NCBI GenBank assembly: GCA_001897295.1
Contig: MKSN01000001.1
Location: 516,011-580,010 of the forward strand
Length of the DNA stretch: 64,000 nucleotides
DNA from: Candidatus Saccharibacteria bacterium 49-20
GTDB taxonomy: Bacteria; Patescibacteriota; Saccharimonadia; Saccharimonadales; Saccharimonadaceae
Direction: 5' to 3'
The translations under genes and the position numbers were made by a program. Shown here piece after piece: positions 1,969 to 9,147 of the stretch (position 1 is the stretch's first letter; every line of letters begins with the position of its first letter). The notes under the pieces are model-generated. The model saw only the letters and a program-made list of their open reading frames with translations, was not told the origin of the DNA and made no database searches.

Positions 1969-3189
1969 TTAGATTGCCTTTAGTGCCGCTTCGAGCTGAG
2001 GGTCTCGGCTGGCGTTAATATCATCAACACTGCGCACCACGGTCGTATCTGGCACAATGCCCTTCTCAGAGATATTCACCCCTGCTGGCGTATACCAACG
2101 CGCAATGGTGACCTTAAGTGTCGCGCCATCAGACAGGTTCACAAGCTTCTGAACGCTTCCCTTGCCAAACGTCGTCTCACCGACAAGTGTTGCCACCTTG
2201 TGATCGTGCAGCGCACCTGCAACGATTTCACTGGCACTGGCGCTACTTCCATTCACCAACACGATTGTCTTTATACCATTAAGGATTGGCGTACCGGTTG
2301 ATTTAAGTTCCTCGGTCACCTTGCCGTTTGTGCGTTCGGTGGTGACAAGCTGGCGATCAAGCCAAATACCCGCCACAGCCTGTGCAGCAGTCACATACCC
2401 GCCGCCGTTACCGCGGAGGTCAACCACCACACCCTTTACGCCCTTATTCTTGAAGTCCATTGCCACGGCGCGCGCCAGGCTACCGGTTTCATCGTCAAAG
2501 CGTGTAATCGTCAGGATGCCTACGCCGTCCTTAATCTCACCGTACGCGCTTGGGTTATTCACCTGCTCGCGGGTAATGTTGAACTCTTTCTCTTCGCCAT
2601 TTCGAAGTACAGTCAGCTTTACAGTCGTCCCTACTTCACCGCGAATATCCGTGGTCACTTCGGTGAGGGTTTTGCCTTCTGTTGATTCGCCGTTCACCTT
2701 TGTAATAATGTCATTAATCATCACTCCAGATTTTTCAGCTGGGTTATCTTGCAGTACACGCACCACGGTCGGCACGTTGTTACGAATCCCCACTTCCACA
2801 CCGATACCGCCGCCGATATTACCCGAAAGCGCATCGTCGAAGCTGGTAGATTCCTTCTTGTTCATGTAGATCGTATATTGATCACCCGCAGCATCAACAA
2901 GACCCTTATTTGCGCCTTCGATCAGCTTTTGCTTATCAAGGTCACCATCGAAGTTGCTCTCGAGTGCCTGATAGGTTTCCTGGACACTTGCAAGGTCGAT
3001 GTCGCCCTTACCGAGCAGTGTATTAATATTGCCGCTCAGAAGCCCGCTGTTAATACCCCCCGCCACATAGCCAATACCCGCGACAAAGATAAAGGCAAAG
3101 ATCATCACCGTGGTAGGAATGCGCTTTTGCGGCTGAGCTCGGCGAGGTGACGGTGTGATGGGCGTGTTGGTAGTAAGTGGCTCGGCCAT
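1969..3189 (-). CDS. ctpA: C-terminal processing peptidase (S41 family, PDZ)
   Basis: The protein has a short cytoplasmic N-terminus, one transmembrane segment (about residues 25-45), a PDZ domain and an S41 tail-specific protease domain. The catalytic Ser lies in NGSSASASE and the Lys in GETTFGKGSVQ, the normal Ser/Lys dyad. Such enzymes trim C-termini of envelope proteins, often peptidoglycan hydrolases or their regulators. The track starts at a TTG (3210), but a strong GGAGGG site lies inside that extension, so I use the ATG at 3189 (MAEPLTTNT). It follows the CHAP hydrolase gene and the ftsEX pair; regulating that wall hydrolase by proteolysis is a reasonable inference, not shown. Confidence 0.93.
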   Translation of the reverse strand: MAEPLTTNTPITPSPRRAQPQKRIPTTVMIFAFIFVAGIGYVAGGINSGLLSGNINTLLGKGDIDLASVQETYQALESNFDGDLDKQKLIEGANKGLVDAAGDQYTIYMNKKESTSFDDALSGNIGGGIGVEVGIRNNVPTVVRVLQDNPAEKSGVMINDIITKVNGESTEGKTLTEVTTDIRGEVGTTVKLTVLRNGEEKEFNITREQVNNPSAYGEIKDGVGILTITRFDDETGSLARAVAMDFKNKGVKGVVVDLRGNGGGYVTAAQAVAGIWLDRQLVTTERTNGKVTEELKSTGTPILNGIKTIVLVNGSSASASEIVAGALHDHKVATLVGETTFGKGSVQKLVNLSDGATLKVTIARWYTPAGVNISEKGIVPDTTVVRSVDDINASRDPQLEAALKAI

Positions 3190-3267
3190 GATGAAAAGTT
3201 TACCCTCCAAAGGTGTGAATTGTACTGGTATTTATTATACCGCTTTTGCTGGATGAAAGCTGAATTA

Positions 3268-4458
3268 CTAAGTGATTTTTACGTATTGGTCGAAGAAACT
3301 CTTTGAAAGCCACATCTCACTATACATACCCCAACCAGCACCGTAATTGTAGTTGTATTGACTCACGAGTACTTGATTGCCACTCACTGCCTCAACCCAT
3401 GCCACGTGTCCTGGGTTACCAAGAATCACTGCAATTGAACCGGGTTGTGGATTTGAGCCGAGGTTCTGATAGCCTGCGTTAATAGCATTACGCGCAAAGT
3501 CACCACCATTACCCCACTTGTAGTAAATACCTACTTCTTTGGCGATCTTCCACGCCACGTAGCTTGCACACTGACGACAGCCATAGCCACGTCCGTCACC
3601 ACCATTGCCGTTTGCGCCACCTGTCGAGAGGTAACCAAGCATTGGACAGTTTGCGTTGTTCCACGGATAGTCACCGAGGGAACCAGAGTCGACAATTGTG
3701 TAGCCACCGGTTGAATTTGTACGGGCATTCAAGACTGCTTGAATACGCTTCGCTTCGGCAATTTGTGCCTGGCTATCTTTAATCATTCCTTGGTACTTCG
3801 ACTCATCATTTTGCGTTTGCGCAAGAAGTCGGGCCTGCTCGGTCTCTTTTGCTTGAAGCGAATCGCGAGCTGCGGTTTGCGTTGCAAGTACCTTCGTCAC
3901 TTCCTCTTTTTGAGTTGTAAGCTGCGTCTTGAGGTCTTTTACCTTTTTAATTGTCGTACTCAATTGATCCTTTACGGAGTTACGGTACTCTTGCTTGTCG
4001 AGGAAGTCACCAATATTTTGACTACTTGCAAGCATTTCAACTGGCGAAATATCATCATCAAGGTAAAGATCGGCAATGGTGGTACCAAGTGCATCTTGAT
4101 TTTCACTAATTTGCTTTTCCGTGTCCGCAATTTCAATGACGAGCTTATCGTGTTGAGCTTGGCTCACGGCAATTTGCGCAAGAATAGCATTCTTTTCATT
4201 CGTAATCTGAGCTAACGCATTTGCAAGTGAAGCTGCCTCGTCATTAAGTCGGTTCGCTTCAGCCTGGTAACGAGCCATATCAGCTTGAAGCGCAGCGATC
4301 TTGTCGTCGTACTGATCAGCAGAAACGGGACGAATGAATTGTGAGCCCGCAGCAGTGGCTGCAAATACGATGGCAACAGCGATCACCATCCCTCGTTTCA
4401 TCTTTGTTGAGAGTGTGTTTATTTTAGAAGCTGGTGTGGTGGTGCGCAGTTTCTTCAT
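3268..4458 (-). CDS. Secreted coiled-coil CHAP peptidoglycan hydrolase (PcsB-like)
   Basis: From ATG 4458 (MKKLRTTTPA) the protein has a basic N-terminus, a signal sequence or anchor (about 22-45), a long coiled coil rich in Ala/Gln/Lys (about 48-245), a short linker and a C-terminal CHAP amidase/endopeptidase domain. The catalytic Cys is in CRQCASYVAW and the His in GHVAWVE. This is the architecture of PcsB/CwlO-type hydrolases activated by FtsEX, and ftsE-ftsX lie directly upstream, so FtsEX-gated wall cleavage at division is a strong inference. The track start at 4497 is a TTG that is really the -35 box (TTGACG); 17 nt later comes an extended -10 (TATGCTAATGT) ending 10 nt before the ATG, so the mRNA should be leaderless. 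Confidence 0.92.
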   Translation of the reverse strand: MKKLRTTTPASKINTLSTKMKRGMVIAVAIVFAATAAGSQFIRPVSADQYDDKIAALQADMARYQAEANRLNDEAASLANALAQITNEKNAILAQIAVSQAQHDKLVIEIADTEKQISENQDALGTTIADLYLDDDISPVEMLASSQNIGDFLDKQEYRNSVKDQLSTTIKKVKDLKTQLTTQKEEVTKVLATQTAARDSLQAKETEQARLLAQTQNDESKYQGMIKDSQAQIAEAKRIQAVLNARTNSTGGYTIVDSGSLGDYPWNNANCPMLGYLSTGGANGNGGDGRGYGCRQCASYVAWKIAKEVGIYYKWGNGGDFARNAINAGYQNLGSNPQPGSIAVILGNPGHVAWVEAVSGNQVLVSQYNYNYGAGWGMYSEMWLSKSFFDQYVKIT

Positions 4459-4468
4459 TTCTTTTACT

Positions 4469-4497
4469 ACATTAGCATAAGCATTTAGTAGCGTCAA
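4469..4497 (-). promoter_or_regulatory. Promoter of the CHAP hydrolase gene
   Basis: TTGACG at 4497-4492, a 17-nt spacer and TAATGT at 4474-4469, with an extended TATGC before the -10. The 15-mer GCTTATGCTAATGTA recurs exactly in the promoter at 54126-54154. The hexamer ends 10 nt before the ATG. The -35 box touches the right arm of the inverted-repeat element 4496-4628. Confidence 0.75.
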
Positions 4498-4628
4498 GAA
4501 ATCTCAAAGGCAGCCCTGAAACTATAAGGACGACTCTGCAGCCCGAGTTTTTAAGGGCGCTGGGGCCCCATAAAAACCCGGAGCGAAGCCAAGTCCGTTA
4601 GTTTACAGGGGTGAATTTGAGATTTCTT
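4496..4628. repeat. Long nested hairpin between ftsX and the CHAP gene
   Basis: A perfect 13-bp outer inverted repeat (AAGAAATCTCAAA / TTTGAGATTTCTT) encloses a second imperfect stem (CCCTG-AAACTA against TAGTTT-CAGGG) and an inner stem (GAGTTTTTA / TAAAAACCC) around GGGGCCCC. On the minus strand it begins 5 nt after the ftsX stop. It could terminate or attenuate ftsEX transcription ahead of the CHAP promoter. There is no T-tract, so it is not a textbook terminator. Its three-tier architecture resembles the dispersed elements at 26677, 42604 and 46019, but I find no shared primary sequence. Confidence 0.7.
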
Positions 4629-4633
4629 ACAGC

Positions 4634-5617
4634 TTAGAGCTTAAGATAACGTCGAGTCGCAAGAAGTGACGAAATAATACCAATGATCGCACCGACAATA
4701 ATCATACCCAGTAGCACAAACCCAGCGTAGATAGTAAGTAGGCTTTGGGTCTCTGCGACCGCGACGCCCGCGTCCTGCAATGCAGGCTCTGCCAGGATAA
4801 ATAGTCCAAACCCAATTGCGCTGGCGATAATAGCGGCAAAGAATCCATACACGACCGCTTCCACAATAAATGGACCACGGATGAATGAGCGCTCCGCACC
4901 AATCAGCTTCATCATTTGAATTTCTTCACGTCGGTTAAAGATTGCCATGCGAATGGTGTTAAAGATGATAAGCGTTGAGATTGCGACGAATACCACACTA
5001 ATAATGATACCGACTTGCTGTGCAAAGGCTGCGGTACCTGCAATCTTTTCGATTGCTTCACGGCGCTGACCCGCAAACGACGGATCGCGATCTGGATCAA
5101 TTGCCGCCTTTACGGTCTCGTTATCTTTTACGAGTGACGCCAGTTGACTAGTGTCATTAATGTCGACCACCTGAATCTTGAGTGTCCATGGGAACTTATT
5201 GGTAGCTTCTTTCACTGCATCGAGGGTTGAATTGTCGGCCTTGTTGTCTTGAATGAAGTTTTCCCTTGCTTGGTCTGGAGTCTGGACTGCCACGTCGGTC
5301 ACCGAGCTTAATTTCTTTACTTCTGCAACCACCTCATTGGCTTCTTCTTGTGTTGTGTCGTTCTTTAGGTAAATCGACATTGACACACTTTCACGTACCG
5401 TCTGAAGTGTGTTTGACATAACATTTTGTGATACCACGCTCGCAAATACCACGAACAGTGTGATTGTCATGACGGCGGTTGCCGCAATAGTAAGCCACGC
5501 GTTACGGGTGAAGTTGTTCACGCCGTACCGGCACATTCGCAGGAATGTAATCCACTGGCGACGGTGTCGCTTTTGTTGACTAAGTGCTTTTGCGTCTTTT
5601 TTCTTGGTCTTTGCCAT
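4634..5617 (-). CDS. ftsX: Cell-division ABC permease FtsX
   Basis: This 327-residue FtsX has a strongly basic N-terminal tail, a first transmembrane helix, an extracytoplasmic domain (about 75-195) and three C-terminal transmembrane helices ending in LLATRRYLKL. With FtsE it forms a divisome complex that transmits ATP hydrolysis to a periplasmic or extracellular wall hydrolase. The track's start lies inside ftsE; ATG 5617 follows the ftsE stop by one base and has a GAAGAGAAGAA purine run just upstream (within the ftsE 3' end) as ribosome binding site, so the two genes are translationally coupled. The likely hydrolase partner, the CHAP protein, is the next gene. Confidence 0.95.
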   Translation of the reverse strand: MAKTKKKDAKALSQQKRHRRQWITFLRMCRYGVNNFTRNAWLTIAATAVMTITLFVVFASVVSQNVMSNTLQTVRESVSMSIYLKNDTTQEEANEVVAEVKKLSSVTDVAVQTPDQARENFIQDNKADNSTLDAVKEATNKFPWTLKIQVVDINDTSQLASLVKDNETVKAAIDPDRDPSFAGQRREAIEKIAGTAAFAQQVGIIISVVFVAISTLIIFNTIRMAIFNRREEIQMMKLIGAERSFIRGPFIVEAVVYGFFAAIIASAIGFGLFILAEPALQDAGVAVAETQSLLTIYAGFVLLGMIIVGAIIGIISSLLATRRYLKL

Positions 5618-5618
5618 A

Positions 5619-6317
5619 TTATTTCTTCTCTTCCGTTTGGCGGTAGCTGCCCTCTGCTTGATCGGCTGTAATCTTTCCGTCTTCAATGGTAATCACGCGA
5701 CGCTTCAGCTTGTTCACGATCTCGGCATTGTGGGTTGTCAGTAGTACTGTTGTGCCGTACTTGTTAATCTTTTCAAGCAAGCGTACGATTTCCCAAGTAT
5801 TCTTAGGGTCGAGGTTTCCGGTTGGCTCATCGGCAATAAGGATTTTCGGCTGACGCACAATCGCACGCGCAATCGCCACACGCTGGCGCTCACCACCAGA
5901 AAGTTGACTCGGGAAGTTTTTCTCTTTACCCGTAAGGCCCACAAGGTCAATTACCTTTGGTACAGTATTCTTAATTTCGCGCCCTGTCATACCGGCGATT
6001 TCAAGGGCAAAGGCGATGTTTTCAAATACAGTACGCTGTGGCAACAGTTTAAAGTCCTGAAAGACAACGCCGATCTTACGGCGAAGCATTGGAATTTGGG
6101 AATCCTTCAGTGTGTCGTAATCGATACCGCCCACGACAATCTTACCGCTGGTTGGCTTTTCTTCACGAGTCAAAAGCTTCAAAAGTGTCGACTTACCTGC
6201 TCCCGAAGAACCGATAATAATCACGAATTCACGGGGTTCAACAAAAAGGCTCATGCGGTTTAAGGCCGGAGCGTTATCTTTTCCGTATGTTTTTGTTACC
6301 CTATCTAAAAGAATCAT
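5619..6317 (-). CDS. ftsE: Cell-division ATP-binding protein FtsE
   Basis: ABC ATPase of 232 residues. Walker A is GSSGAGKST, the signature LSGGERQRVAIARA and Walker B ILIADEPTGNLD, all canonical. It pairs with FtsX, encoded one base downstream. The track begins at 6488, but the family starts at MILLDRVTKTYG; that ATG (6317) is preceded by an extended -10 (TGC-TATACT, 6333-6328) ending 10 nt before it, so the upstream extension is non-coding and the mRNA is probably leaderless. The C-terminus is short and charged (EEKK). Confidence 0.96.
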   Translation of the reverse strand: MILLDRVTKTYGKDNAPALNRMSLFVEPREFVIIIGSSGAGKSTLLKLLTREEKPTSGKIVVGGIDYDTLKDSQIPMLRRKIGVVFQDFKLLPQRTVFENIAFALEIAGMTGREIKNTVPKVIDLVGLTGKEKNFPSQLSGGERQRVAIARAIVRQPKILIADEPTGNLDPKNTWEIVRLLEKINKYGTTVLLTTHNAEIVNKLKRRVITIEDGKITADQAEGSYRQTEEKK

Positions 6318-6386
6318 TTCTGCATTAAGTATAGCACGAGGTGGCGAGAGAAAAAATCCGCTTGTGGTTTTTTCCGAGCACCGATG

Positions 6387-6415
6387 TGCAATGTCGTACA
6401 AAGTACGAGATTGCA
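6387..6415. terminator. Hairpin after the 58-aa membrane protein gene
   Basis: TGCAAT-gt-CGTAC-aaa-GTACG-ag-ATTGCA forms an 11-bp interrupted stem between the small ORF and the ftsE promoter. No T-tract follows immediately on the minus strand, so it may be a weak terminator or a processing structure. Confidence 0.45.
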
Positions 6416-6438
6416 TAAGTCCTAAAGATGCTTGCGGG

Positions 6439-6615
6439 CTATTCCGAGATTCGCTTTGCGAGCTTATAGCCCAGGATAATCCCAACAATTCCGCCCACTG
6501 TACTCAGCAGAATACTCATCCCGCTAAATAAGTCATTGTCGCCCCATAAAGCTGGGACATATGCGCCGGCGATTCCGCCCACAAGTGCGCCAAATCCAAT
6601 AAGAAGTTTATACAT
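6439..6615 (-). CDS. Small glycine-rich two-helix membrane protein (58 aa)
   Basis: This ORF is below the track's length cut-off. ATG at 6615 gives MYKLLIGFGALVGGIAGAY..., 58 residues with two hydrophobic helices (about 4-20 and 32-50), each with spaced glycines (GALVGGIAGA and GGIVGIILG), and a basic tail KLAKRISE. The pattern resembles glycine-zipper membrane proteins; I cannot name a family. It lies upstream of ftsE on the same strand, but ftsE has its own promoter. A TATACT hexamer lies 9 nt before the ATG, fitting the leaderless pattern elsewhere. That an ORF this short encodes two clean helices with an in-place promoter supports it being real. Confidence 0.7.
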   Translation of the reverse strand: MYKLLIGFGALVGGIAGAYVPALWGDNDLFSGMSILLSTVGGIVGIILGYKLAKRISE

Positions 6616-6679
6616 AACCTATTTAGTATACACCTCAAAAATGTCTATCTCACATAGTACGGAATGCGTAGGTGTTGCA

Positions 6680-6715
6680 GTGTGAGGCCCGGTCGTAGTT
6701 GACCGGGCCTCACAC
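6680..6715. terminator. Perfect 15-bp GC-rich hairpin
   Basis: GTGTGAGGCCCGGTC and GACCGGGCCTCACAC flank a 6-nt loop, 9 nt after the stop of the gene at 6724-7188. There is no T-tract; such very stable tracts-free hairpins are commoner in high-GC bacteria. Part of the foreign-looking cassette. Confidence 0.7.
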
Positions 6716-6723
6716 ATGGGGGT

Positions 6724-7188
6724 TCAGCAGCCCGCCAGGACGCGTTCGATGACCTGCTCGTAGTTGAACGTGAGCAGGCTCTCGAGCTTCTCGCTCCCCG
6801 ACTCGAGCGCCGCGACGACGAGGTCGCTGCTCGTGATGGACGTGTTGTCCGTCGGGTTGGCACCCACCCGCAGCTCGGCGAAGACCGCGCTCAGCCGGAG
6901 CATCCGCTTGTAGGCGGGCGTCTGGTAGCGCTTCTCCGGCATCTTGAGGAAGCCGACGTAGGCGCCCTCTGCCCGCCGACGCAGCCGCTCTGGGTCGAAG
7001 TCCATGTCGAGCAGGATCTGACGAGCCGTCGGGTAGGCCTGGGGGTCCAGGCAAAGCACGGTCGCCGGGAGGTGGATCGAGTCCACCGTGTCGTGCCCCA
7101 TGTTCTCGGCGAACATGTTGACTTCCATCAGCAGCGTGTGTGCGCTGACACTGAAAGGCCGGTTCAAGACCGGGTAGGTTCCGTACAT
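6724..7188 (-). CDS. Clp N-domain-like protein, GC-rich, probably acquired
   Basis: From ATG 7188 (MYGTYPVLNRP) the 154 residues read as two degenerate Clp_N repeats: FSVSAHTLLMEVNMFAENMGHD...HLPATVL...ARQILLDM, then TPAYKRMLRLSAVFAE...ITSSDLVVAALESG...LESLL. Clp_N domains of ClpA/ClpC bind adaptors and substrates; here no AAA+ module follows, so it could act only as an adaptor, decoy or independent binding protein. I choose 7188 over 7215 because GGAGAG lies 7 nt before it. GC content is far above that of the neighbours, with GAC/CTC/GTC/GAG codons dominating. Together with its strong ribosome site and perfect 3' hairpin this suggests transfer from a high-GC bacterium. The Clp_N match is by eye. 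Confidence 0.7.
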   Translation of the reverse strand: MYGTYPVLNRPFSVSAHTLLMEVNMFAENMGHDTVDSIHLPATVLCLDPQAYPTARQILLDMDFDPERLRRRAEGAYVGFLKMPEKRYQTPAYKRMLRLSAVFAELRVGANPTDNTSITSSDLVVAALESGSEKLESLLTFNYEQVIERVLAGC

Positions 7189-7309
7189 GATGTATCTCTC
7201 CATTTCTCGACGCACTCATACTAAGCACCCCGTAGCATGTGACATATCTGTTAACGTGCGACGAATTGTTCTATTACCACATATTGAACACCTTTCGAGA
7301 GTTGAGTTC

Positions 7310-7343
7310 AAGGGGTGGCCGGCATTTTCGCCAGCCACCCCTT
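7310..7343. terminator. GC-rich hairpin between the two Clp_N-like genes
   Basis: AAGGGGTGGC and GCCACCCCTT form a 10-bp stem around a GC-rich loop that can extend it (CGGC...GCC). It starts 10 nt after the stop of the gene at 7354-7911 and again lacks a T-tract. Confidence 0.75.
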
Positions 7344-7353
7344 TAGAGCGAAC

Positions 7354-7911
7354 TCAGGATCGAGCGTGATACGCGAGTGCGTGCAGGTGCGCGATGGACT
7401 CGGCGCCCGACTCGGTTGCAACCTGGAACTGGGCAGTGTAGAAATCCCACTGACTGGCTTCGACCGTCTCGATGTTCGAGTAGTCGTGGTCCGTCACCTT
7501 GCCCCAGGTCACCTCCTCGTCGCCGCTCGTAGCGCTGCGTATCGTGGCGACCTTGTCGTCGACATACACCTCGAACCGCAGCGCGAGGCTGGCGTACATC
7601 TCGACCGCCGGCAACGCCATGTACTGACGCTCCCCGACCACCACGATGTTCGCACGAGCCGTGTCGATCGCCAGAAGCGCCAACACCGACTCGGCGAGCT
7701 CCACGGTGAAGCCGTAGCGCTCGATGAGCTGCTTGACTCGCATGGGCGCGTCGTCGTCGACGAGCGCCGCAAATACGATGTGAATCGGGTCGAGTACGTC
7801 GTGACCGCACTCATCCACGGCGTCATACGCCGCTTCGAATAGCCGCTTTCCACCGAAATGATCGCTCTTAATCATCTCAATGGTTGCAAGTGCACTTCCC
7901 TGAAGGGCCAT
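7354..7911 (-). CDS. Second Clp N-domain-like protein, GC-rich, probably acquired
   Basis: A 185-residue protein whose first 75 residues match one Clp_N repeat (LFEAAYDAVDECGHDVLDPIH...ALVDDDAPMRVKQLIERYGF); the rest is only weakly similar and unassigned. No ATPase domain, signal peptide or membrane segment is seen. The first 25 codons have local base composition while the remainder is strongly GC-rich, so the gene may be a recently acquired body behind a local 5' end. It has a clear promoter (8021-8049), a leader of about 105 nt and AGAGGTG just before the ATG, unlike the leaderless genes around it. With its neighbour at 6724 it forms a two-gene island between the ftsE block and prfB. Confidence 0.65.
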   Translation of the reverse strand: MALQGSALATIEMIKSDHFGGKRLFEAAYDAVDECGHDVLDPIHIVFAALVDDDAPMRVKQLIERYGFTVELAESVLALLAIDTARANIVVVGERQYMALPAVEMYASLALRFEVYVDDKVATIRSATSGDEEVTWGKVTDHDYSNIETVEASQWDFYTAQFQVATESGAESIAHLHALAYHARS

Positions 7912-8020
7912 GCCACCTCTTTCTCTGAGTTTGCCTTATGAAACACCGGATGGTATTCCATATGTAGCAATAGACTTTCAATGCAACTTTCTTGGGTGCG
8001 TACACTCAAAAACTTGCTAT

Positions 8021-8049
8021 ATTATATCACATTTTGTTTATTTTTTCAA
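8021..8049 (-). promoter_or_regulatory. Promoter of the Clp_N-like island
   Basis: TTGAAA (8049-8044), a 17-nt spacer and TATAAT (8026-8021) with TG one base upstream of the -10 on the minus strand. The A/T-rich promoter contrasts with the GC-rich genes it drives. The leader to ATG 7911 is about 105 nt and holds no structure I recognise. Confidence 0.75.
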
Positions 8050-8067
8050 TATATTACAGAGGTGATT

Positions 8068-9147
8068 TTATTCAGTCGGGGCTTCAAGAAAGGCTTCCAT
8101 GAACGGATCAAGTTCACCGTCGAGTACACCTTGCGCATTGTTGGTTTCGAACTTCGTGCGTGTATCTTTTACCAGTGTATACGGGTGAAGGACATAATTT
8201 CGAATCTGACTCCCCCAGTTTGCCGACTCACCCGCTTGAAGCTCCGCAACCGAAGCCGCATGCTGTTCAAGTTGCAGTTGCGCCAACTTCGAACGAAGAA
8301 TCTTCATCGCAGTTTCTTTGTTTTGCAGCTGCGAACGTTCGTTTTGAATTGCAACCATAATACCCGTTGGAATATGCGTAATACGCACCGCAGAATCGGT
8401 CGTGTTGACCGATTGTCCGCCATGGCCACCCGCACGGTACACATCAATCTTAAGATCTTTCTCATCAATCTGCACTTCACTTGGCGCATCAATCTGAGGA
8501 AGCACCTCAACGAGCGCAAAGCTTGTCTGGCGAAGATTATCGCTATTGAAAGGGCTCAAGCGCACGAGCCGGTGCACGCCGTGCTCAGACTTCAAGCGGC
8601 CATACGCATACGCACCAGTCACTTCAAAGACTGCGGACTTAATCCCCGCCTCTTCACCTGTCGAGCGCTCAATCAAACTTGTCGACATATCAGCGCGCTC
8701 GGCCCAGCGAAGGTACATCCGCTCGAGCATTTCCGTCCAGTCCTGTGCGTCAGTTCCACCTACTCCCGCACTAAGGCGAAGGATTGCATTGTGATCGTCA
8801 TACTCACCATCAAACAAAAGATCTTTTCGAAGCGTCTCGTACTCTTTTTCGAAGGCCACAATTTGACCTTCAAATTCACCGAGTAGCTCGTCGTCGCCAA
8901 GGTCCATCAATTCAAGCATGTCGTCGGCCTGTGCTTTTAGCGTAAGCCAAGGGTCGACCATTTTCTTAAGCGCCGCAAGTTGGCGACTCACATCTTGTGC
9001 GTGCTGAGGGTTATGCCAAATTTCTGAAGTTGAAAGCTGAGCCTCCATGTCGTCAATTTGCGCCTGGCGATCTTCAATATGAAGTCGCTCAAGGGCGGCA
9101 TCAATTTGCGTGCGAAGTTCGTTCAGGCGTTTCAGAAGTGGCTGCAT
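8068..9147 (-). CDS. prfB: Peptide chain release factor 2
   Basis: Class I release factor of 359 residues. The SPF codon-recognition tripeptide (VRLSPFNSD) identifies RF2, which reads UGA and UAA, and the peptidyl-hydrolysis motif is intact (GGHGGQSVN). The common programmed +1 frameshift near codon 26 is absent: the frame is open from ATG 9147 (MQPLLKRLNEL). So RF2 is not autoregulated in that way here. TATAAT lies 7 nt before the ATG and follows directly on the murD terminator hairpin, giving a leaderless message. Its presence shows that UGA is a genuine stop in this organism. Confidence 0.97.
   Translation of the reverse strand: MQPLLKRLNELRTQIDAALERLHIEDRQAQIDDMEAQLSTSEIWHNPQHAQDVSRQLAALKKMVDPWLTLKAQADDMLELMDLGDDELLGEFEGQIVAFEKEYETLRKDLLFDGEYDDHNAILRLSAGVGGTDAQDWTEMLERMYLRWAERADMSTSLIERSTGEEAGIKSAVFEVTGAYAYGRLKSEHGVHRLVRLSPFNSDNLRQTSFALVEVLPQIDAPSEVQIDEKDLKIDVYRAGGHGGQSVNTTDSAVRITHIPTGIMVAIQNERSQLQNKETAMKILRSKLAQLQLEQHAASVAELQAGESANWGSQIRNYVLHPYTLVKDTRTKFETNNAQGVLDGELDPFMEAFLEAPTE

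Follow-up and report, generated by a model that had tools for sequence, protein, structure and literature searches.

The stretch of DNA analysed here (the window, 64,000 nucleotides, to which all coordinates refer) represents bases 516011-580010 of a single-contig genome of 904,897 bases that is 98% complete. Two genes on its minus strand, A (7354..7911, 185 amino acids) and B (6724..7188, 154 amino acids counted from an ATG), lie between prfB, which encodes release factor 2 (8068..9147), and ftsE (5619..6317), both likewise on the minus strand; prfB is the same neighbour in all carriers examined. Between B and ftsE, a further minus-strand gene starting at 6616 codes for a short membrane protein (~6440-6616); among the genus members read, it is common to G013 and G010 only. 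An extended -10 box (TGTGATATAAT; 8021..8031, minus strand) can be read off the sequence in cassette A (the gene with its flanks), and TGnTATAAT-like boxes occupy the equivalent position in most relatives of this cassette. Both genes are preceded by a Shine-Dalgarno site, and directly after each stop codon there is a GC-rich minus-strand hairpin without a T-tract, at 7310..7343 for A and at 6680..6715 for B (fold energies of approximately -33 and -35 kcal/mol respectively). These Shine-Dalgarno sites are not foreign features, as native rpoC and rpsG of the same genome have them too. A preliminary description of this DNA had claimed a GC-rich gene pair at this place, with both signals at each gene and with base composition and codon use unlike those of the neighbours, and in these respects it agrees with what we found. 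Its remark that most genes in the region are leaderless holds for some genes, such as ftsE in relatives from the genus, but is only partly right: a crude scan placed a -10 box at the start codon in just 10 of the 47 window genes.

The G+C content at third codon positions (GC3) is 0.78 in A and 0.91 in B, against a median of 0.51 (standard deviation 0.044) among the 47 other window genes; the two genes thus lie 6 and 9 standard deviations above the others and are anomalous in composition. Codon bias associated with high expression was ruled out as the source, because rpsL, rpsG, rpoB/C and fusA of the same genome have a GC3 of 0.43-0.49. Amino-acid composition was ruled out as well, given that native ClpC N-domains have a GC3 of 0.33-0.53.

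Neither protein yielded a match in Pfam, NCBIfam or PHROG, and neither reaches the curated cut-off of Clp_N (PF02861), which the near-canonical relatives encoded in the same slot do reach. Against a profile that we built from 35 ClpC/ClpB N-domains, B scores 17.2 bits (E = 1.8e-4, Z = 1000), a value equalled by none of 1000 shuffled sequences (the best of 2000 B shuffles scored 4.7 bits). The corresponding score for A is 10.0 bits, which was reached by 0 of 1000 shuffles in one run and by 1 of 2000 in another; none of the remaining window ORFs scores on this profile. With leave-one-out profiles of positional relatives, the scores are 15.1 bits for A and 22.9 bits for B, neither attained by any of 1000 shuffles, so that both are linked to Clp_N through intermediates; the G016 copy (L050) is the sole slot protein still doubtful on such profiles. 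The slot proteins span a range from a plain ClpC N-domain, represented by the G006 copy (L054; 130 bits, Pfam E 6e-27), through near-canonical positional relatives at 56-103 bits, above the Pfam Clp_N cut-off, to sequences that are barely recognisable. Judged by these profiles, B is clearly a divergent double Clp_N domain, and A, likewise divergent, is marginal alone and backed through its positional relatives. Both ORFs stop after the N-domain and have no AAA+ module, as the preliminary description had proposed in calling them Clp_N-like proteins without an ATPase; on the question it raised of whether the genome encodes ClpC, we found that it does so in full length, and that another Clp ATPase is encoded elsewhere in the genome as well. 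AlphaFold2 predictions from single sequences had low pLDDT (41 for B, with nine helices, and 33 for A), giving no confident structure and leaving Foldseek unusable. Both proteins have lost the glutamate that is conserved in the (T/S)EH motif of Clp_N repeats; A and B therefore need not bind the normal ligands of ClpC, and their ligands have probably changed.

Single-protein searches found no close relatives of A or B in plasmids, phages, viral contigs, 84,980 species genomes or 61 relatives, these contig scans being able to detect close relatives only. The impression that A and B are strain-specific orphans, to which such searches had led, was overturned by direct reading of the slot. Among 16 genomes of the same Saccharibacteria genus with prfB, the interval from prfB to ftsE contains a GC-rich gene for a Clp_N-only protein in ten, and the other six have a tight empty slot of 29-99 bases, in which we noticed no target-site duplication. 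Each carrier in the genus has a different Clp_N-only gene, flanked by prfB and ftsE; the variability among strains that had been raised as a possibility is thus real, as the slot gene differs between genomes and is absent from some. A profile search of the genus, Clp ATPases set aside, found one locus per genome and always the same slot; the window genome has two copies there, arranged in tandem. Eight genomes from other genera of the family also have a Clp_N-only gene in the slot (L110, L111, L113, L114, L115, L118, L120 and L125). For this comparison 107 intervals outside the genus were inspected, seven of which had been picked because the profile flagged them, and the frequency of carriers in other genera is roughly 8 in 142 genomes sampled. 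Of the 100 intervals that had not been preselected, about half contain next to nothing, and unrelated genes occur in some. The slot is not reserved for Clp_N-only genes: that idea was ruled out by the NUDIX, pilin and transporter genes present there in other genera. One further occupant, in L213 (G431), a different genus, is a GC-rich orphan of 178 amino acids (GC3 0.72) at 67-601 after the prfB stop, with neither inverted repeats nor Clp_N likeness.

Clp_N-only genes also occur elsewhere. In other Patescibacteria families they are found at other sites (L122, 4153-4821; L123, 3254-4084 and 7754-8224) and fall close to firmicute-type ClpC in the protein tree; of these, L122 has a short flank match (P = 0.022) and no clear flanking repeat. 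The Pseudarthrobacter plasmid pACHL01 (L007) has four such genes amid small hypothetical genes at 3027-6451, some of them with extra C-terminal parts, and there is a similar cluster on plasmid pPA-B-2242 (L227). On a high-GC viral contig (L239, IMGVR_UViG_3300010430_000022), a Clp_N-only gene of 286 amino acids (3001-3858) adjoins a ribonucleotide-reductase-like gene. The Mycobacterium phages Myrna (L013, 5971-6678) and Phabba (L012, 6001-6666) encode ClpC N-domain-only proteins that are very close to the N-domain of actinobacterial ClpC1 (MFERFTDRARRVCVLAQEEARMLNH...); the Myrna protein, gp251, is annotated as 'ATP protease' and its Phabba counterpart as hypothetical. These phage proteins are likely to be decoys or modulators of ClpC.

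In the window, the leader of each gene and the region past its 3' hairpin form imperfect inverted repeats (usually 16-30 bases long in the cassettes). The preliminary description had noted the hairpins but not these repeats, and the hairpins are part of a larger structure around each gene. For A, the leader arm (7947..7974, minus strand; TCTATTGCTACATATGGAATACC) matches the right, 3' arm with which it is predicted to pair (7270..7297, minus strand; reverse complement TCTATTACCACATATTGAACACC) at 22 of 28 positions (shuffle P < 0.002). For B, the leader arm at 7221..7246 (TATGTCACATGCTACGGGGTGCTTAG) and the right, 3' arm at 6646..6671 (reverse complement TATCTCACATAGTACGGAATGCGTAG), both on the minus strand, match at 20 of 26 positions (shuffle P = 0.002). 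Seventeen of the 19 cassettes have a repeat better than that of shuffles (P <= 0.05), the exceptions being L118 and L120, and none of 13 Clp_N-only genes from actinobacterial plasmids or phages has flanking inverted repeats. We examined 806 ORFs, taken from the window, from further stretches of the same genome and from 100 loci of the family; only three have a repeat score of at least 14, and all are Clp_N cassettes, namely A, B and the one in L125. Leaders and 3' flanks are also matched to each other within cassettes: their summed fold energy is -959.5 kcal/mol, compared with -849.8 kcal/mol for the best of 20,000 permutations (P < 5e-5), and DNA repeat scores are likewise better for matched than for swapped flanks. 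No such matched-flank effect was found for 47 ordinary window genes (P = 0.86). Mismatches in the arms lean towards RNA, with a ratio of G-U to A-C of 32:18 that is not significant (P = 0.065), and some of the repeat signal may therefore arise at the DNA level; the strand asymmetry of flank folding leans the same way and is not decisive (P = 0.12).

At equilibrium, 17 of the 19 full transcripts are predicted to form 22-47 base pairs between the leader and the downstream region (exceptions L114 and L120), with 35 pairs expected for A and 33 for B. Long-distance 5'-3' pairing with co-variation, of the kind known from hok and aapA mRNAs, is thus predicted for 17 of the 19 cassettes. Whole cassettes fold better than dinucleotide shuffles (z = -8.4 for A and -5.0 for B), and the coding regions are folded too. 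Against synonymous shuffles, which preserve the protein and the codon counts, the coding region of A has a z of -3.9 to -4.2; over all cassettes the mean z is -2.01, with 19 of 19 negative. The corresponding values for controls are -0.29 (48 window ORFs), -0.60 (49 high-GC actinobacterial or phage ORFs) and approximately -0.34 (30 prfB/ftsE segments), and the differences from the cassettes are significant (P <= 5e-5). In cassette genes, the coding strand folds more strongly than its complement (P = 0.011). In the orthologous pairs the predicted base pairs overlap more than those of shuffled sequences, as only 1 of 40 and 2 of 40 synonymous shuffles reach the observed overlap. The synonymous-shuffle results speak for selection on how the RNA folds, and such selection could give rise to GC-rich codons without a foreign source. 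The start region is unpaired to 0.40 in cassettes versus 0.49 in ordinary genes (seven controls); being just slightly more paired than usual, it lends translational repression weak support. No Rfam family matches the cassettes at its gathering score. One might go further and regard the cassette transcripts, of 600-860 nt, as structured bacterial RNA elements of a novel class that only Saccharibacteria have, with ends that pair around a Clp_N frame, a fold that is itself selected and a hypervariable protein as its paired product; we consider this doubtful, if conceivable. In its most extreme form, the GC-rich, Shine-Dalgarno-led transcript would be made to persist and be translated in an actinobacterial host.

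We then compared the slot proteins with ClpC. For all eight near-canonical cassettes (seven from other genera, and L054) the best reference is an actinobacterial ClpC N-domain (75-150 bits), compared with 33-56 bits for ClpC of their own family and 55-115 bits for firmicute ClpC, in a reference set of three actinobacterial and two firmicute sequences only. In the protein tree, the ClpC N-domains of the family form a clade of their own (100/99) with no cassette inside it; the cassettes lie outside own ClpC on inner forks that do not resolve, and neither, hence, does the exact donor. The cassettes probably descend from an actinobacterial-type ClpC N-domain and are diversifying fast. In two pairs of close relatives, L049/L051 and L110/L113, prfB is 97% identical, whereas the identity of the Clp_N protein is as low as 48% and 58%, respectively. 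Synonymous divergence of the Clp_N gene is nonetheless of the same order as that of prfB (1.55 versus 0.96, and 0.89 versus 1.31), which indicates vertical descent in both pairs. The ratio dN/dS is approximately 0.31 and 0.39 for the Clp_N genes and 0.016-0.019 for prfB; the slot protein evolves at roughly 20 times the rate of its neighbours. All 19 cassette genes have a higher GC3 than the mean of prfB and ftsE. The more a copy resembles actinobacterial ClpC, the smaller this excess tends to be (Spearman -0.54, P = 0.018), and the most diverged copies show the largest; genes that had been imported recently and were then ameliorating should show the reverse trend.

These results bear on the proposal, made in the preliminary description, that the two genes form an island likely to come from an actinobacterial donor of high GC, possibly the host. 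An actinobacterial source is upheld in part, by the best matches of the near-canonical relatives, but a recent transfer of the pair as an island is not. Recent import from a high-GC actinobacterium, whether host, plasmid or phage, with the donor's codons retained, would account for the high GC3 of A and B and for the resemblance of near-canonical cassettes to actinobacterial ClpC, and possible donors exist: plasmids of Rhodococcus, Mycobacterium and Arthrobacter often carry Clp_N-only genes, and such genes are also found in Myrna and Phabba. However, the genes are not absent from relatives at the same site, given the ten carriers among 16 genus members; the same slot, mostly with the same flank structure, recurs across genera of the family; the searches of plasmids, phages, viral contigs and species genomes, sensitive to close relatives only, returned none; and vertical descent in two pairs, a GC3 trend opposed to amelioration and synonymous choices that favour RNA folding all argue against it. 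We therefore regard recent import as unlikely, and a transfer island is not established. The inverted repeats might instead be the DNA-level ends of a non-autonomous mobile cassette, with RNA pairing incidental, as single genes flanked by repeats, two different cassettes in tandem in the window and the co-variation of matched arms would suggest. Against it stand the coding regions, which also fold better than synonymous shuffles, and more so on the sense strand; the single locus per genome, always in the same slot in the genus; and the empty sites, in which no target-site duplication was noticed. We consider this explanation quite unlikely.

It is also possible, if improbable, that the protein is a mimic directed at the host, delivered to or released in the actinobacterium, where it would compete with host ClpC1 for adaptors and substrates. 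The known cultivated Saccharibacteria live on actinobacteria, and a target inside the host would be consistent with slot proteins that resemble the ClpC of actinobacteria. All eight near-canonical copies resemble actinobacterial rather than own ClpC N-domains, the protein evolves fast, as effectors do, actinobacterial phages too encode ClpC N-domain-only proteins, and phage SPO1 acts on ClpC through Gp53 (PMC6873191). On the other side, no export or secretion signal was seen in A or B, no VirB4-type T4SS ATPase (PF03135) was found in the genome, and the ClpC N-domains of the family are on a long branch, so that the actinobacterial likeness could be retained ancestry. A search with PADLOC gave no match to a known defence family.

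The reading that we prefer, with a probability of about 0.45, is that A and B are Saccharibacteria-specific cassettes of the prfB-ftsE slot, each of which expresses an ATPase-free ClpC N-domain decoy from a closed, probably autoinhibited mRNA. From the family, slot, inverted flanks, predicted folding and fast evolution obtained by computation, we infer both control through the RNA and action as a decoy. The mRNA would close by pairing of its leader with the 3' flank, with a hairpin after the stop and a coding region that is folded too; by analogy with hok and AapA mRNAs, the closed transcript would probably be stable and poorly translated until opened or trimmed. The protein most likely binds ligands of the ClpC N-domain, such as adaptors, marked substrates, peptide toxins or proteins of phages or hosts and, having no ATPase, would withhold them much as mycobacterial ClpC2 does. 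Interception of ClpC ligands, as the preliminary description proposed, is our best guess.

Few of the molecular tools that Saccharibacteria direct at their hosts, whether to harm or to help them, are known. A decoy of the ClpC N-domain that changes quickly while its chromosomal position stays the same would suggest that protein quality control is a contested target among epibiont, host and phage, and a closed, selected mRNA fold around a gene that is not a toxin would extend a design best known from type I toxins. The cassettes also suggest caution in the detection of transferred genes, as GC-rich codons in a small island can stem from RNA folding rather than foreign origin.

Among known systems, Gp53 of phage SPO1 is a foreign adaptor-like protein that interacts with and modulates ClpC, and it marks ClpC as a target in conflict (PMC6873191); it differs from the cassette protein in not being a copy of the N-domain. 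The genes of plasmids pACHL01 and pRHL3, Myrna gp251 and Phabba gp107 encode ClpC N-domains without an ATPase and, like the cassettes, lie in accessory DNA that varies. The actinobacterial plasmid and phage genes differ from the cassettes in having no flanking inverted repeats (0/13), and ORFs from plasmid and phage records have ordinary codon-fold statistics (mean -0.60). The mRNAs of the type I toxins hok and aapA form compact transcripts in which the leader pairs with the 3' end around the coding region (PMC6733600), an arrangement also predicted for the cassettes; however, hok and aapA encode short toxins under antisense RNA control, whereas the cassettes encode a soluble domain of 137-228 amino acids and have a GC-rich hairpin after the stop. 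Mycobacterial ClpC2 is an ATPase-free partial homologue of ClpC1 that has the fold of the ClpC N-domain, binds cyclomarin, a ligand of the ClpC1 N-domain, and acts as a sponge (PMC10030653), and A and B, judged by their sequences, share with it the form of a stand-alone ClpC N-domain-like protein without an ATPase. ClpC2 is in addition a DNA-binding autorepressor with the operator CGTCAAC-n5-GTTGACG at the start codon, an extra dimerisation domain and a transcript described as leaderless (PMC10030653); no match to this operator was found near A or B. Unlike ClpC2, the cassettes have a long folded leader, a 3' flank that closes on it and a hypervariable protein.
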